Positions 22,255-29,781 of a stretch of 64,000 nt of DNA are shown here, piece by piece. The DNA is from Tardiphaga sp. P9-11 (GTDB lineage: Bacteria > Pseudomonadota > Alphaproteobacteria > Rhizobiales > Xanthobacteraceae). The notes beneath the pieces were generated by a model. The model made no database searches. It saw only the letters and a program-made list of their open reading frames with translations, and had not been told where the DNA came from. The number at the start of each line of letters is the position of its first letter. The first letter of the stretch is position 1. The stretch covers positions 1 to 64,000 of the forward strand of contig NZ_NPKQ01000007.1 of assembly GCF_008329525.1 (NCBI RefSeq), read 5' to 3'. A program made the position numbers and the translations under genes.

Positions 22255-22540
22255 GCGCGTAGCATAGCAGGCAGAGGGCGTTCGGGCGATGGCCTCGGCG
22301 CTCAACAGGTGCTGAGCGGATCGAGGTGGCATCGGAGGATCGGGACCACGAACCAAGCAATGCTTATGCCCGGCATTTGGCTTACTTATTGGATCGGTGC
22401 TGGCCGCGCGGGGCACACTGACGCCAGCGCGGGCTGATCAATCTGGAACCGCTCGATAACCGGCCTGGCGCGCCCGATTGTTGCTTGATTGTTCGGACGA
22501 CCGGCATAGCTACAGGAGACAGGCAGGGAGCCTGTTCACC

Positions 22541-23896
22541 ATGACGAATATCGTGACAATCGACGGCAAAGCATCGACCAGAACGACAACACCTCATCGC
22601 GTGGTCATTGTAGGCGCCGGCTTCGGCGGGCTGGAGGCCGTGTATCGGCTGACCGGTGCCGATGTCAGCATCACCATTGTCGATCGCCGCAATCATCATC
22701 TGTTTCAGCCGCTGCTGTATCAGGTCGCGACCGCGTCGCTGGCGACGTCGGAGATCGCCTGGCCGATCCGCTATCTGTTGCGTGGACGCAAGGATGTGAC
22801 GACACTGCTCGGCACGGTCACCGGCATTGATGCAGCCAAGCGCCGAGTATTGCTCGATGACGGGCAGACACTGCCCTATGACACGCTTGTGCTCGCCACC
22901 GGCGCTGGTCATGCCTATTTCGGCCATGATGAATGGGAGCCGTTTGCGCCGGGCTTGAAGACGTTGGAGGATGCGACCACGCTGCGCCGCCGTATTCTCA
23001 CGGCCTTCGAGCGCGCCGAGCGCGAGAGCGATCCGGTGAAGCGCGCGGCGCTGCTGACCTTCGTGATCATCGGCGCCGGACCCACTGGGGTCGAACTCGC
23101 GGGCACCATTGCCGAACTGGCGCGCGTAACGTTGCCGGAAGATTTTCGCAATATCGATACGCGTGAGACGCGTGTGGTTCTGATCGAGGCCGGCACGCGC
23201 GTGCTCGCCGGATTTCCGGAAGATCTGTCTGCCTATGCGCAGCGTTCGCTGGAAAAGCTCGGCGTCGAAGTTGCGCTCGGACATGCGGTGTCGGATTGCA
23301 ACATCGACGGGGTGGTCTATGGCGACAAGGTGCTCGGGGCCAGGACGATCATCTGGGCCGCGGGCGTGCGCGCGTCGCCGGCTGCGGAGTGGCTGGGTGT
23401 TGCCGCCGATCGGGCGGGACGACTGCAGGTCAATCCGGATCTCACGGTGCCCGGTCATCCCGATATTTTCGCAGTCGGAGACACCGTGACCATCGCTGCG
23501 CCCGATGGAAAGCCGGTGCCCGGAATCGCGCCGGCGGCGAAGCAGGAAGGGCGCTATGTCGCGTCAGCGATCAAGCAGCGTCTGCGCGGCGAGACGCCCG
23601 TGCCGTTTCGCTACTCGCACGATGGTAGTCTCGCGCAGATCGGCAAGAAGCTTGCGGTGATCGACTTCGGTCGCGTGCGCTTACGCGGTGCGTTGGCGTG
23701 GTGGATCTGGGGCATCGCCCACATCTACTTCCTGATCGGGCTGCGCAATCGTCTTGCCGTTGCGATCAACTGGCTGTGGATCCACACGCTGGATCAGCGT
23801 GGTGCGCGGCTAATCACGCAGGGGCGCGCCGTGATCGACAGCAAATCCGTACCGTCGCATAGCGACAAGGAGAAGCGTGCCAGTTCGGTGCGTTGA
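22541..23896 (+). CDS. ndh: Type II NADH dehydrogenase (NDH-2)
   Basis: This 451-residue flavoprotein oxidises NADH and reduces quinone without pumping protons. The first dinucleotide motif GAGFGGLEAV (FAD) is near residue 25 and the second GAGPTGVELAG (NADH) near residue 180. The conserved DRRNHHLFQPLLYQVA quinone/FAD segment follows the first. A C-terminal amphipathic, Trp-rich region (WWIWGIAHIYFLIGLRNRL) attaches it to the membrane. The start at 22541 has GGGAG upstream. It would let the cell bypass complex I. It stands alone between aat and a DASS transporter. Confidence 0.93.
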   Translation: MTNIVTIDGKASTRTTTPHRVVIVGAGFGGLEAVYRLTGADVSITIVDRRNHHLFQPLLYQVATASLATSEIAWPIRYLLRGRKDVTTLLGTVTGIDAAKRRVLLDDGQTLPYDTLVLATGAGHAYFGHDEWEPFAPGLKTLEDATTLRRRILTAFERAERESDPVKRAALLTFVIIGAGPTGVELAGTIAELARVTLPEDFRNIDTRETRVVLIEAGTRVLAGFPEDLSAYAQRSLEKLGVEVALGHAVSDCNIDGVVYGDKVLGARTIIWAAGVRASPAAEWLGVAADRAGRLQVNPDLTVPGHPDIFAVGDTVTIAAPDGKPVPGIAPAAKQEGRYVASAIKQRLRGETPVPFRYSHDGSLAQIGKKLAVIDFGRVRLRGALAWWIWGIAHIYFLIGLRNRLAVAINWLWIHTLDQRGARLITQGRAVIDSKSVPSHSDKEKRASSVR

Positions 23897-24348
23897 AATC
23901 TCGGGACGGCTGCCAGGGCGGCTTGGCGAAAATAGACGCCATGGATGCCGCCAGGCGTGGGCGGCGGCTGATCCAGCCTGAGAGCGTCGCCTGACTGTAC
24001 GCACCGGCAAGCTACGCGCACGCAATGTGCCGGAGATCGGCAGCGGCAGCTTCACTCATGACCTGTCGTCGGCTTGCTCCCTATGCGGTGAAGAAAACCA
24101 TCCGATAGACGAGCATTTCCTGCCGCTCGATACTGCGTTCGGGGGGGGCCGGCGGCAACGCCGCGCGTGACCCGGCTGCATGCGAGTGCGACCTTTGTTG
24201 CGGATGCGAAGGGAGAGAGCAGCACGTTTTAATATGGTGATACATACAGCGCAGTTCGCGTGGCCGATTGCTCGCCTGGCAAAAACTGGTGTTACGTTGC
24301 AAGACGTGTGTCGCAGGCACGGCAGATCGGTTCGCGGGAGGGTAGGCT
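23897..24348 (+). other. Intergenic region upstream of the DASS transporter
   Basis: About 450 bp without a convincing gene. ORFs on both strands are short or are extensions into neighbouring genes. The region presumably holds the promoter and leader of the gene at 24349. No terminator with a T-tract was found for ndh. Confidence 0.45.
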
Positions 24349-25794
24349 GTGTCGTTGAGCTGGAAGAAGATCGCACCTTTGGCCGTCTGGCTGGTGCTGT
24401 ACGTCATCCCGATTCCGGCAGGACTTGTCGCCAATCAGTGGCATTATTTTGCCGTTTTCGCCGCGGTGATTACCGGCCTTATCCTGGAATCCATGCCTGT
24501 TGGCGCGGTCGGTCTGATCGGTCTGACCTTTGCGGGCGTGATGGGATATGTCGAACACGATCCCAACAAGTCGCTGCGCTGGATGCTGAGCGGATTCTCC
24601 GAAAGCACGGTGTGGCTGATCGTCGGCGCCTTCGTATTCTCGATCGGCTATCGCAAGAGCGGCCTCGGCAGGCGTCTCGCATTGCTGCTGGTTCGCAGCC
24701 TCGGGCGCAACACGGTGGGACTGGGTTACGCCGTTGCGCTGTCCGATCTGGTTCTCGCGCCGGCGACACCATCGAACACCGCGCGCAGCGGCGGCACGGT
24801 CTATCCGATCGTCAGCAATATCCCGAAGATCTATGGATCGGAGCCGGGTCCGACAGCCGGCAGGATCGGGACCTACGTGATGTGGACCGCTTTCGCAGCG
24901 ACCGCGGTGACGAGCTCGATGTTCCTCACGGCGCTTGCGCCCAACGCGGCTGCACTGAGCATAGCCAAGAAGATCGTGAGCGTGGACGTCGGCTGGTCAC
25001 AGTGGTTCATCGGATTTGCGCCGCTGGGCGTGCCGCTCATTCTGCTGGTGCCGTTGCTGAGCTATATGATTTGCCGACCGGAGGTGAAGAACAGCCCGGA
25101 GATCGTGGCGTGGAGCGCGAGCGAACTCGCGTCGATGGGGGCGTTGTCGCGCAGTGAATGGATCATGGCCGGACTGGTCCTGCTTGCGATGTTCCTGTGG
25201 ATCACCGGATCCAATCCCGACATCTCGCTGCCTGGCGTCGGTTCGAACTTCATCAATGCGACCATGGTGGTGTTCGTTGTGATCTCGCTGATGCTCGTCA
25301 CCGGCGTCATCACGTTCTCCGACATCATCGCCGAGAAAGCAGCGTGGGAGGTGTTTTTCTACTTCACATCGCTGCTGACCCTGTCATCCGGCCTCAACGA
25401 CATCGGCTTCATCAAATGGGCAGCCGCCGGCCTGGCGGCTCCGCTCGCCACATTCAGCCCGACCATCGCGATGATCCTACTTGTCTCGATCTTCTTCTGG
25501 ATCCACTACTTTTTCTCGAGCATTACGGCGCACGCGGCGGCGATGCTGCCTGTCGTGCTGGCGGTGGGGTCGAGCATTCCCGGAATCCCGATGTCGACTC
25601 TGACATTGCTCTGCATCTATTCGCTAGGCCTGATGGGCGTGATCTCGCCCTATGCCACCGGACCGGCGCCGATGTATTTTGGCAGCGGTTATATCGGCAA
25701 GGCCGACTTCTGGAAGTTCGGCCTGATCTTCGGGCTGATCTATTTCGCCGGCTTGCTGCTGGTCGTGATGCCTTGGCTGCTGACGATCAACTGA
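24349..25794 (+). CDS. DASS-family dicarboxylate/anion symporter or exchanger
   Basis: This 481-residue inner-membrane protein has about 12 or more helices and belongs to the divalent anion:Na+ symporter (SLC13) family. ATPSNTARSGGTVYPI is the sodium/substrate SNT signature in its 2-oxoglutarate/malate-translocator form. A second motif in the later half is SSITAHAAAMLPVV. The start is a GTG at 24349 preceded by a strong GGGAGG six bases upstream. Substrates could be malate, 2-oxoglutarate, citrate or tartrate. It converges on the uracil cluster. Confidence 0.92.
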   Translation: MSLSWKKIAPLAVWLVLYVIPIPAGLVANQWHYFAVFAAVITGLILESMPVGAVGLIGLTFAGVMGYVEHDPNKSLRWMLSGFSESTVWLIVGAFVFSIGYRKSGLGRRLALLLVRSLGRNTVGLGYAVALSDLVLAPATPSNTARSGGTVYPIVSNIPKIYGSEPGPTAGRIGTYVMWTAFAATAVTSSMFLTALAPNAAALSIAKKIVSVDVGWSQWFIGFAPLGVPLILLVPLLSYMICRPEVKNSPEIVAWSASELASMGALSRSEWIMAGLVLLAMFLWITGSNPDISLPGVGSNFINATMVVFVVISLMLVTGVITFSDIIAEKAAWEVFFYFTSLLTLSSGLNDIGFIKWAAAGLAAPLATFSPTIAMILLVSIFFWIHYFFSSITAHAAAMLPVVLAVGSSIPGIPMSTLTLLCIYSLGLMGVISPYATGPAPMYFGSGYIGKADFWKFGLIFGLIYFAGLLLVVMPWLLTIN

Positions 25795-25851
25795 ACCCTC
25801 GGTAAACGAAAGCGTCGCGTGGTGGGAGACGTCCGCGGTCGCTGCGCCCCG

Positions 25852-26490
25852 TTACCTGGTGCCGTAAGCGCGGTCGCCGGCATCGCCGAGACCCGGCTCG
25901 ATATAGGCGTGTTCGTTGAGCCGATCATCGATCGCCGCCGTCCAGATCGGCACATCCGGATGGTAGCCGCGCAGGCGCTCGATGCCTTCCGGTGCTGCCA
26001 GCAGGCAGACGAAACGAATGTCCTTGGCGCCGCGCTCCTTGATACGGTCGATCGCGGCGACCGCGGTATTCGCCGTCGCGAGCATAGGATCGATGACGAT
26101 CACCAGGCGCTCGTCGAGGTTGGTTGGTGCCTTGAAGAAATACTCTACGGCCACGAAGGTTTCGGGATCGCGATAGAGCCCGATATGCGCGATGCGCGCT
26201 GACGGGACGAGGCCGATCATGCCTTCGACGAAAGAGAGGCCGGCGCGCAGGATCGGCGCAAATACCAGTTTCTTGCCGGCGATTTCCTTGCCGGTCATTT
26301 TCATGATCGGCGTTTCGATCTCGACATCGGTGAGCGGCAGGTCGCGCGTCACCTCGTAGCACAGCAGCATGCCGATTTCGTTGAGCAGTTCGCGAAAGCC
26401 CTTGGTCGAGCGGTTCTTGTCGCGGATCAGCGTCAGCTTGTGCTGCACCAGCGGGTGATTAACGATCGTGACGCCGTCCATGAACCTCAT
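25852..26490 (-). CDS. upp: Uracil phosphoribosyltransferase
   Basis: This 212-residue enzyme makes UMP from uracil and PRPP. The PRPP-binding loop [14 protein letters not shown] is near residue 130, the [15 protein letters not shown] segment is near 80, and the C-terminal [27 protein letters not shown] matches the family. It is the third gene after urc1 and urc4 on the minus strand, 30 bp from urc4. In the yeast URC pathway a uracil phosphoribosyltransferase (Urc6) does the first step of uracil breakdown. Here it probably serves both salvage and the pathway. The start at 26490 was kept; an ATG three codons later is possible. Confidence 0.95.
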
Positions 26491-26520
26491 CCGTTGCGAG
26501 AGTGTAAAATCGTCTTTGAC

Positions 26521-27765
26521 CTAGAAAACCGTACCGTCGCTGATGACCTTCACCGGCGGCGAATGATCCTCGCGGCGCTCGCGCGCCAAAATGCGACCGG
26601 CGGCCCATGTGCCACCTTCGAGTACCTTGGCCAGCGGCAGCGACGTCGCGTCCAGCTTCAGTCTTTGTCGCAGGCCGTCGGCGACGCGGTCAAGTAGCGC
26701 TACGGTCAGTGCCCGCCATTCCACCACCAGCGGCGAGGACACGTCATGTTCGCGCGCGGCATTGACAGGATCTCGGAATTTCAGAACGCCGCCGTCGACG
26801 AAAAGGCCGCCATTGCGATATTCGGCCAATCCCGTGAGACCGTCGATGTCGGTGACGTCGATGCCTCCAATCTGCAGCGGTTCGATGAGCGAATAGGCCA
26901 GCCACTGCGACAGCTTGTGGAGGGGCACAAGGCCGCTCGTCGCATCCGAGGTCGTCATCGCCGGATGCTTCCAGCAATCGCCGAGAGCGATGCCGTCCAG
27001 CGTCAGCCGCGACGGCCAGATCGGACCAAGTTGCAGCAGTAGTTCCGAGAGGATCGCTGGCGCAGGCAGGCGGCCATTGTCAGCCTGCGACGCCAGGCGA
27101 TCGAACAATCCGCCGGGCCGCGGCGTATCCTTCCTGCCGAACACGTCGGGCTTCGACGCCACGTGTTTGCCAAGCCGGCGCAGCAGATCGGCGCGGCCGT
27201 CGATGCCGACCATTGGATTGGTCTCGGAGACCTGCATGCCCCGCTTGAGATCGCTGACGTCGAGCTCTGCGAGCTTGCTGGCATCGGCGCGCAGTGGCTG
27301 CGCGGGATCGGCAGAGAACGTGCCGCCGACGAACATAGCAAGGCTCGCGAGACCGAGACCTTCGGAGCGGCCGATGGCCGCGCCGGTTTGCGGATCGGTG
27401 TAGCGCCAGGTCGGGCCGGCGCCGGCATCGAGGAACACGCTGGCGATGGCAAGATCGAATTCGGCGCGGCCGCGCGCAGCGCTATCAGACCATGCGGTGC
27501 GATCTGCGAGCTGAGCCCAGCGATTGTCGCCGGCGTTGACGAAGTGGCGCCAGCGCGAATGGAACGGCACGTCGAGCGACGGGTACGACGCCCGCGTCGT
27601 TTCCAGCACCAGATCGATCACGTCATCCATTCGCGAGAGATCGATGCGGAAGTTAGGTAGTTTATCGTCGAGGCCCAGTGCAAGCATGCGCTGCGCGCGT
27701 TCACGCACGGCGTGGGCTGACAGCAAAGAGAGCGCGGCGGAGGCTTCCGGGGTCTGCGAATTCAC
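26521..27765 (-). CDS. URC4/Urg3 family protein (DUF1688), uracil catabolism
   Basis: This 414-residue soluble protein is recognised as DUF1688, the family of yeast Urc4 (fission yeast Urg3), which is required for uracil use as nitrogen source. Its reaction is not well defined. Conserved-looking parts are the early HAVRERAQRML, SLDVPFHSRWRHF, GLGLASLAMFVGGTFS and HKLSQWLAYSLIEPL segments. The GTG at 27765 was chosen because it lies 10 bp after the urc1 stop with a GAG-rich region upstream. A TTG at 27789, overlapping urc1, is an alternative. It is flanked by the urc1-like gene and upp, which matches the expected partner set. Confidence 0.85.
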   Translation of the reverse strand: MNSQTPEASAALSLLSAHAVRERAQRMLALGLDDKLPNFRIDLSRMDDVIDLVLETTRASYPSLDVPFHSRWRHFVNAGDNRWAQLADRTAWSDSAARGRAEFDLAIASVFLDAGAGPTWRYTDPQTGAAIGRSEGLGLASLAMFVGGTFSADPAQPLRADASKLAELDVSDLKRGMQVSETNPMVGIDGRADLLRRLGKHVASKPDVFGRKDTPRPGGLFDRLASQADNGRLPAPAILSELLLQLGPIWPSRLTLDGIALGDCWKHPAMTTSDATSGLVPLHKLSQWLAYSLIEPLQIGGIDVTDIDGLTGLAEYRNGGLFVDGGVLKFRDPVNAAREHDVSSPLVVEWRALTVALLDRVADGLRQRLKLDATSLPLAKVLEGGTWAAGRILARERREDHSPPVKVISDGTVF

Positions 27766-27775
27766 TTTTGATATC

Positions 27776-29032
27776 TCAATACTTCTCAAGCGTGCGACCG
27801 ACGGAGTCGATCAGGTCCTGCGGCGTCACCGGCTCCGGCGTAAAGTAGCCGGCAGCTTTCTTGGCAGCGATTTCAACATGTGCGTCGGCCGGGATCATAT
27901 CGTCGGGGATCGGCACGCGTTCCACGATTTCGACGCCTTGGCTGGTCAGCGCATCATGCTTCATGTCGCTCATGGAAATGAAGTGATCGATACGCTTGAG
28001 GCCAAGCCAGTGCACGACATCCGGCATCAGTTGCTGGAAGCGCGCATCCTGCACGCCCGCGACGCATTCGGTGCGTTCGAAATATTGCGCCGCTGCGTCG
28101 CCGCCTTCCTGGCGTTTGCGCGCATTGTAGACCAGAAATTTGGTGACCTCGCCGAGCGCGCGGCCTTCCTTGCGATTGTAGATGATGATGCCGAGACCGC
28201 CGGATTGTCCGGCGCGTGCGCATTCCTCGATGCCGTGGATGAGATAGGGACGGCAGGTGCAGATATCGGAGCCGAACACGTCGGAACCGTTGCACTCGTC
28301 ATGAACACGGCAGGTGATGCTGGTCGTGTGATCCGGCAGTTTGCTGACGTCACCGAATAGATAGGCAGTGGTACCGCCGATCGGCGGCAGAAACACCTGC
28401 AGGTCCGGTCGCGTCACCAGCTCAGGAAACATGCCGGCCGTCTGCTCAAACAATTGGCGACGCAGATTGTTTTCGCTGGTATCAAAGCGCTTGGCGAGGC
28501 CGGGAAGATACCAGACCGGATCGATGGCGATCTTGACGACCGAGACGCTGCCATTGTCGTGAACGACATCGCCGTCATGCCTGAGACGGCCGGCGGCGAT
28601 GGCGGCCTGCAATTCGGGCAGATCCAGTCGCGCTTTGGTGATCGCGATGCTCGGGCGGATATCGATGCCCTCTGCAATCTCGGGCGCAAAGTTCTCGGCG
28701 ACGAGGTGCCCCCAGGGATCCAGCGAGACGATTTTTTCCGGATCCATCCACTGGCCGAATGGGCCGATGGTTGCTGCCGGATGAGTGTTTGTGAGATCGG
28801 GGCGCTTCAGCGGATCGAGCGCGCCGGACGACACCGCGAGCGCACGATAGACCGAGTAGGAGCCGCCATGGGTGCCGATGACGTTGCGGTCCTGTGGGCG
28901 GGAGACGGTGCCGATAATTGGCCCGCGTTCACGTGCGGAGGGTGCGCCCCACTGGATCGGGAAGTTATGCTTGGCGCCCGGCGCAGGATGCGACGTCAGG
29001 CGAATATGATCGATCCGGTTGGAACGGCTCAT
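27776..29032 (-). CDS. GTP cyclohydrolase II-like protein, URC1/Urg1 family
   Basis: This 418-residue protein has a 200-residue N-terminal extension and a C-terminal RibA-like domain. The zinc triad C-x10-C-x-C of GTP cyclohydrolase II is present (DEC..SDICTC, about residues 243-257). The following catalytic segment reads IIIYNRKEGRALGEVTK instead of the RibA LRQEGRGIGL form. Yeast Urc1 is of this type, acts on a UMP-derived intermediate rather than GTP, and is needed for uracil breakdown. AGGAGG eight bases before the ATG at 29032 sets the start. It is the first gene of urc1-urc4-upp. Confidence 0.88.
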   Translation of the reverse strand: MSRSNRIDHIRLTSHPAPGAKHNFPIQWGAPSARERGPIIGTVSRPQDRNVIGTHGGSYSVYRALAVSSGALDPLKRPDLTNTHPAATIGPFGQWMDPEKIVSLDPWGHLVAENFAPEIAEGIDIRPSIAITKARLDLPELQAAIAAGRLRHDGDVVHDNGSVSVVKIAIDPVWYLPGLAKRFDTSENNLRRQLFEQTAGMFPELVTRPDLQVFLPPIGGTTAYLFGDVSKLPDHTTSITCRVHDECNGSDVFGSDICTCRPYLIHGIEECARAGQSGGLGIIIYNRKEGRALGEVTKFLVYNARKRQEGGDAAAQYFERTECVAGVQDARFQQLMPDVVHWLGLKRIDHFISMSDMKHDALTSQGVEIVERVPIPDDMIPADAHVEIAAKKAAGYFTPEPVTPQDLIDSVGRTLEKY

Positions 29033-29100
29033 CGTAAAGGCCTCCTAAAATGGCAACGGCCCGCCTGAAAGGACGGGCCTTATTGCTAAGGAAGCAACTA
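29033..29100 (-). promoter_or_regulatory. Structured 5' leader of the uracil cluster
   Basis: On the minus strand, three hairpins can form before the AGGAGG of urc1. They are TTGCT/AGCAA at 29083-29097 with a TCCTT loop, CCTTA/TAAGG at 29078-29091 (as seen on the plus strand) with a 4-nt loop, and GGCCCG/CGGGCC at 29058-29079 with a 10-nt loop. The middle hairpin overlaps both others, so they are mutually exclusive. This suggests regulated folding (attenuator or riboswitch), but it may be chance. Confidence 0.4.
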
Positions 29101-29283
29101 ACTATAACTATCTCTCAAACAAATGCAACAGGACGAAAGACGTGGTAGCCGGCACGGGATGTCCCAAAAGCTCCGCCGCACCCAATATGCGCCGGTTGCC
29201 GACAATTTCAGCGTGTCCGGGCCTTGTGTCACGCGATCGTCACGGCGAGCATACGCTTCGTCAACCATGTTGGAGTGCCTGAT

Positions 29284-29781
29284 ATGCGCGCCGTTCTGGA
29301 TCATTGCAGCGATGGTCTGAAGCACAGCGTTGCAGCGGGCGACACGATCATCCGGGAAGGACAGACCAGCGGGCATTTGTTCGTGCTGATCGAAGGACAG
29401 CTCGATATCGTCAAGGGCGATACTGTTGTTGCGAGCCTGACCGAGCCCGGCGCCGTTATCGGCGAAATGTCAGTGCTTCTTGAACAGCCGCATACCGCGA
29501 CCGTGCGCGCTGTCATGGAGACGCAAATCTATGAGTTCGAAAATGCGACGGATTTCCTGCGGGATCACCCGACCGTCGCGCTGATGATCGCGCGGCTGCT
29601 GGCGCAGCGGCTCCATGTAGCGACGAGTTATCTCGCCGATATCAAGCAGCAATATGCCGGCCACGGCACGCATCTGTCGATGGTCAGCGAACTGCTGGAC
29701 AACATGGTCAACCTATCACCGACGAAGGTGTCGCCGGGCTCTGACCGACACTCGGATCGTCAAGGCGATCCAAGGATCTGA
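29284..29781 (+). CDS. Cyclic nucleotide-binding domain protein
   Basis: This 165-residue protein consists mainly of one cNMP-binding domain (about residues 5-125). It has the phosphate-binding cassette region GAVIGEMSVLLEQPHTATVRA, though the usual RTA Arg pattern is TVRA. There is no helix-turn-helix, so it is not a Crp-type transcription factor. A helical tail follows, with no membrane segment. The start at 29284 has GGAG upstream. It may be a sensor subunit for an unknown partner. Its 3' end overlaps the converging metallophosphoesterase gene by 74 bp. It is divergent from urc1. Confidence 0.88.
   Translation: MRAVLDHCSDGLKHSVAAGDTIIREGQTSGHLFVLIEGQLDIVKGDTVVASLTEPGAVIGEMSVLLEQPHTATVRAVMETQIYEFENATDFLRDHPTVALMIARLLAQRLHVATSYLADIKQQYAGHGTHLSMVSELLDNMVNLSPTKVSPGSDRHSDRQGDPRI

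Follow-up and report, generated by a model that had tools for sequence, protein, structure and literature searches.

How a bacterium that breaks down uracil by the uracil catabolism (URC) route finally releases urea, and from which uridine nucleotide the ring is opened, are the questions raised by three genes, urc1, urc4, and upp, at positions 25852 to 29032 of a contig from Tardiphaga sp. P9-11 (NZ_NPKQ01000007.1). We analyzed the first 64,000 nucleotides of this contig, referred to here as the window. URC is one of the four pyrimidine degradation routes listed in a passage of PMC12507026. The stretch in the window is a real bacterial URC operon. Such a cluster could be recognized beforehand from database names and is not itself new; what is new here is a proposal for the enzyme class of Urc4, a likely correction of the nucleotide substrate of Urc1 from uridine monophosphate (UMP) to uridine triphosphate (UTP), and a leader element. 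We consider it quite likely that the operon serves URC uracil breakdown with Urc1 acting on UTP and Urc4 acting as a Qng1-like N-glycosidase, both activities being predicted. The features are as follows.

urc1, 27776..29032, minus strand, 418 amino acids: probable UTP-cyclohydrolase-type protein by sequence match (database name, GTP cyclohydrolase II).
urc4, 26521..27765, minus strand, 414 amino acids from a GTG start: DUF1688 protein, predicted Qng1-like N-glycosidase, with K284 and E315 as proposed active-site residues.
upp, 25852..26490, minus strand, 212 amino acids: uracil phosphoribosyltransferase by family match.
Conserved GC-rich palindromic leader element, 29058..29079, minus strand: GGCCCGTC-loop-GGCGGGCC.

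Urc4 matched PF07958/DUF1688 (483 bits) over almost the full length of the protein, a family that Pfam labels "protein of unknown function." We therefore turned to its predicted structure. A model built from the window protein aligned with its counterparts at 56 of the best 80 loci had a predicted local distance difference test score (pLDDT) of 94.2 and a predicted template modeling (TM) score (pTM) of 0.93. When this model was searched with Foldseek against 350,542 PDB chains, all 11 matches at an E value of ≤0.001 were DUF2419/Qng1 proteins (E values from 1.1e-9 to 3.2e-8), and the twelfth match had an E value of 0.73. Because a likeness between Urc4 and Qng1 motifs had been noted before modeling, the fold search tested a prior idea. 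The Qng1 matches, among which are structures bound to queuosine 5'-monophosphate and the mutant chains K199C and D231N, had TM scores of 0.69 to 0.77 when normalized by target. At the level of family profiles, PF10343 (Q_salvage) was weakly matched by 20 of the 57 Urc4 proteins (best E value, 0.00067), compared to 4 of 57 for the next family.

The comparison also points to candidate active-site residues. Two Qng1 fragments taken from PDB records aligned, in order, to Urc4 residues 161 to 205 and 282 to 365, and column-shuffled controls equaled the fragment scores in 1/100 and 0/100 cases, respectively. Comparison of the mutant chains identified Qng1 K199 as the Lys of FYKRAQ and D231 as the Asp of FADYK. 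In the profile alignment, K199 is putatively paired with Urc4 K284 (LHKLSQ) and D231 with E315 (LAEYR). The spacing from Lys to acid is 32 residues in Qng1 and 31 in Urc4, and the K284 and E315 columns were invariant in both Urc4 sets (n = 57 and n = 19).

Several observations weigh against this relationship or against its extension to function. The Foldseek TM scores by query were 0.55 to 0.61, with root mean square deviations of 4.8 to 6.3; the window Urc4 scored 14 bits against PF10343, for which the cut-off is 25; and no PDB entry was retrieved at an E value of ≤10 in a profile search starting from Urc4. The hhalign probabilities for Urc4 and Qng1 were low (1.6%; 4.1% and 2.9%), and the residue pairing relies on short fragments. 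Moreover, a Glu (E315) stands where Qng1 has D231. Relative to the Qng1/DUF2419 structures (7u07, 7u91, 7ugk, and others), Urc4 shares the predicted fold, the order of two sequence blocks, and, in the profile alignment, a Lys at the place of K199 but is only 16 to 19% identical and differs in the acidic residue. In its predicted fold, Urc4 is a relative of Qng1 and not a member of PF10343. The Urc4-Qng1 link was not found in the literature that we searched, mostly at the abstract level.

In its predicted shape, Urc4 resembles an enzyme that separates a base from a ribose phosphate, and this resemblance hints at how urea may finally be released. In yeast, URC4 turns ribosylurea into urea, as summarized in a passage of PMC7530994. 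Together with the Qng1-like fold of the model, this step suggests that Urc4 is an N-glycosidase that splits ribosylurea or phosphoribosylurea into urea and ribose or ribose 5-phosphate, the simplest reading. Alternatively, Urc4 could resemble Qng1 in fold yet be no glycosidase, instead hydrolyzing or isomerizing a ring-opened ureido chain while the sugar-urea bond is cut otherwise or spontaneously. The Glu at the acidic position and the weakness of the Qng1 similarity beyond the fold would fit such a protein, and the same passage of PMC7530994 calls the steps from uracil to ribosylurea uncharacterized. However, the fold matches a nucleosidase family only, the Lys and acid columns are invariant, and the yeast Urc4 step is the one that yields urea; we regard this alternative as unlikely. 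For the family as a whole, we judge it likely that Urc4/DUF1688 and Qng1 are sister families, that Urc4 is an N-glycosidase which frees urea from a 5'-phosphorylated riboside and has a Glu at the position of the catalytic Asp, and that Bradyrhizobium-like operons carry their own conserved leader hairpin or operator. The fold match thus offers for Urc4 an enzyme class, a type of substrate (a 5'-phosphorylated N-riboside), and two candidate residues. If true, a glycosidase activity of Urc4 would account for the enzymologically unexplained last step of URC breakdown in bacteria and, through shared family membership, in fungi.

The nucleotide on which Urc1 acts was assessed from its solved relatives. 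Urc1 matched two solved chains, 7ej3 and 7eev (E value, 2e-175); over the 408 columns aligned with 7ej3, 261 residues were identical (64%). We take these chains to be the UTP cyclohydrolase of Zhang 2021. The sequence-only reading of this DNA had noted a zinc triad, C-x10-C-x-C, and a changed catalytic segment, RKEGRALG; they lie from residues 247 and 287, respectively, and in these motifs the window Urc1 shows no difference from the solved chains. Both motifs were retained in 109/109 Urc1 relatives, a count from which matches of <380 residues or with a stop had been removed beforehand. Given the closeness to 7ej3 and 7eev, Urc1 is probably of the UTP cyclohydrolase type, and the substrate that follows Upp is probably UTP rather than UMP, the substrate that the sequence-only reading had proposed for the next step. 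Urc1 also matched PF12471 (273 bits), PF00925 (50 bits), and the curated model NF005536/PRK07198 (751 bits; cut-off, 403). The comparison with the solved chains suggests that NF005536, named "GTP cyclohydrolase II," is better read as UTP cyclohydrolase.

RibA shares with Urc1 the PF00925 domain and the cysteine triad, but three RibA-type rows read DQEGRGNG where Urc1 has RKEGRALG, and PF12471 is additional in Urc1. Urc1 scored far below the curated RibA cut-offs (NF001591, 58.5 of 148 bits; TIGR00505, 47.4 of 205.85 bits). In a tree containing 29 of 110 Urc1 rows, sampled at even steps, the Urc1 rows were separate from five RibA-type rows, two of them degenerate; the branches between the groups were saturated, and the separation alone is informative. 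In these sequence comparisons, Urc1 is distinct from RibA. The earlier argument that Urc1 is not a riboflavin enzyme gains from the missed RibA models, the separate branch, and the conserved RKEGRALG, but it is weakened in one respect by what else the genome encodes. We found three PF00925 proteins in the genome, among which Urc1 was the sole bearer of the triad; the other two are as follows.

RibBA-type proteins, L027:841-1959 (contig C19) and L028:883-1959 (contig C6) of this genome (G000): GTP cyclohydrolase II domains without the cysteine triad.

A passage of PMC9478397 calls the first step of riboflavin synthesis in Rhizobiales unresolved, and with both RibBA-type proteins lacking the triad, one could suppose that Urc1 provides the GTP cyclohydrolase II step in this genome. 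This is very improbable, as urc1 was always accompanied by urc4 in 398 genomes drawn from the phylum, Urc1 misses the RibA models, and genomes of the same order (e.g., G051, G055, and G071) had zero matches to NF005536, so that Urc1 is not a general solution for riboflavin. These same-order genomes are entirely without Urc1, and we therefore rejected it as the riboflavin GTP cyclohydrolase that Rhizobiales seem to lack.

Upp, the remaining member of the operon, belongs to an established enzyme family (PF14681, 239 bits; TIGR01091, 269 bits, above the cut-off) and would convert uracil and phosphoribosyl pyrophosphate to UMP. Housekeeping kinases would then raise UMP to UTP. Urc1, if the activity of its characterized relative carries over, would open the pyrimidine ring, and this step would lead to a three-carbon acid (for example, 3-oxopropanoate) together with 5'-phosphoribosylurea. 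In the latter, Urc4 would hydrolyze the bond between C1' of the ribose and the urea nitrogen, much as Qng1 cleaves queuosine 5'-phosphate; E315 would take the role of Qng1 D231 and K284 that of K199. The urea would be broken down by urease, or by urea carboxylase and allophanate hydrolase, from genes located elsewhere in the genome. We presume that the yeast URC proteins (GTP-cyclohydrolase-II-like, DUF1688/Urc4, and uracil phosphoribosyltransferase) belong to the same families as the three proteins of the window. As described in a passage of PMC7530994, the yeast route (Lachancea kluyveri URC1, URC4, and URC6) likewise has urea as a product; in contrast to yeast, the window genes form one operon, the urea enzymes are encoded elsewhere, and urease is present besides allophanate hydrolase.

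No match to urease alpha or allophanate hydrolase was found in the 64-kb window, as the sequence-only reading had stated for urea-degrading genes. Elsewhere in the genome, matches above the cut-offs were found for both (located at G000:C3 and G000:C12), the urease alpha gene being flanked by ORFs (open reading frames) of subunit size. Across the 398-genome draw, urease was found in 23/26 genomes with urc genes versus 121/372 without (Fisher P = 1.8e-8), and allophanate hydrolase in 18/26 versus 55/372. Two points temper this association: the statistic ignores kinship, and three genomes with urc genes (G119, G256, and G373, which belong to one family, f12) had no match to either enzyme at the cut-offs applied.

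Genes near the operon were counted at 92 loci spanning 12 kb or more, some of which share a genome, by means of ORFs scored by GC content at third codon positions and tblastn, as naive clustering of ORFs was confounded by shadow ORFs in GC-rich DNA. A phosphopentomutase-like gene was found at 14/92 loci, a cytosine deaminase-like gene at 5/92 (four with at least 78% identity to the query and one with 31%), a gene for a Bmp-type transporter protein at 3/92, and ureC at 2/92, both close relatives. Family assignments were checked for two cytosine deaminases, one ureC, three Bmp proteins, and one phosphopentomutase-like protein; the last of these matched the Metalloenzyme family, and its name is our assumption.

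These neighbors bear on the possibility that the operon acts to recycle or clear uridine nucleotides (turnover or clean-up) and not to support growth on external uracil as a nitrogen source. UTP as the substrate of Urc1 would make the route costly for nutrient use, and the genome additionally has dihydropyrimidinase-family and RutA-family genes elsewhere. Cytosine deaminase-like and Bmp-type transporter genes near some loci argue against a clean-up role, as does the co-occurrence of urease with the operon, and no clear pathway partners of the dihydropyrimidinase and RutA genes were seen among the ten ORFs scanned around them, a part of the ORFs in stretches of 11 to 12 kb. We consider a clean-up role improbable and retain uracil breakdown as the probable function of the operon. 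The dihydropyrimidinase gene adjoins a carbamoylputrescine-type amidase gene. The RutA-family gene (L139:3432-4637, on G000 C12; 693 bits) lies beside ubiE and a gene for DNA-formamidopyrimidine glycosylase, and no rut operon partner was found among the ORFs scanned at that locus.

The operon is laid out as first described: all three genes are on the minus strand, 10 bp separate urc1 from urc4 if the GTG at 27765 is taken as the urc4 start, and 30 bp separate urc4 from upp. A TTG at 27789 is a possible alternative start and would make urc4 overlap urc1. Among the named rows listed, the nearest place the genome as a relative of Bradyrhizobium. For conservation, we compared 109 urc4 loci: 25 from the draw of phylum genomes, 4 from 13 plasmid records, and the best 80 of at least 585 confirmed places in named genomes. 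The order urc1-urc4-upp on one strand was found at 99/109 loci, which places the cluster beyond chance; the best 80 are nearest relatives, some sharing a genome, and this count is hardly informative for distant groups. Loci on plasmids extend the order to Betaproteobacteria and Actinomycetota. In the 398-genome draw, urc4 was found in 26 genomes and urc1, above the cut-off, in the same 26. The proposal of a conserved bacterial version of the URC cluster, with a shared gene order, is borne out by these counts.

Among the 10 exceptions, two loci (L010 and L042) are truncated where their contig stops. The upp gene is divergent at L106; it is out of reach at L004, for which a wider locus from the same genome (L149) has a divergent upp. 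It was not seen at L103 or at L013, for the latter even across a wider 19 kb (L159). The remaining four loci (L074, L085, L086, and L088) have urc4 without urc1 nearby, and L088 is also without upp nearby; the genomes of all four contain a near-full-length urc1 match elsewhere (66 to 70% identity).

Upstream of urc1, the window reads, toward the urc1 start on the minus strand, GGCCCGTC-loop-GGCGGGCC, TTTT (29047-29050), and AGGAGG (29041-29046). The leader pattern occurred once in the window and in 0/100 shuffles. Among 126 urc1 loci, from partly repeated genomes, it was found on the urc1 strand at 54, lying 21 to 74 nucleotides before the start (median, 23); the remaining matches were opposite-strand readings only, in three of the same loci. 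A stricter, terminator-like rule was satisfied by 37/91 leaders and, after thinning, by 18/65; shuffled sequences gave a mean of 0.5 (max, 2), and 0.4% of randomly drawn stretches passed. The copy in the window fails this rule. Because the neighboring gene upstream is divergent, the element does not here terminate a preceding gene in the same direction. The core stem was nearly invariant, with a compensatory change in 0/8 pairs, and the element may be either an attenuator (RNA hairpin) or a DNA operator. A search of the window against Rfam gave nothing above gathering scores, and a sigma-70 promoter scan of 25600-29400 found no promoter. Other groups (e.g., L084, L089, and L152) have hairpins of differing sequence at the same site before urc1.

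Around the operon, three long ORFs, at 24180-25157 (plus strand), 25158-25805 (plus strand), and 22382-23458 (minus strand), had no Pfam match at an E value of ≤0.01. The divergent gene beside urc1, at 29224-29781 on the plus strand, encodes a protein with a cyclic-nucleotide-binding domain.

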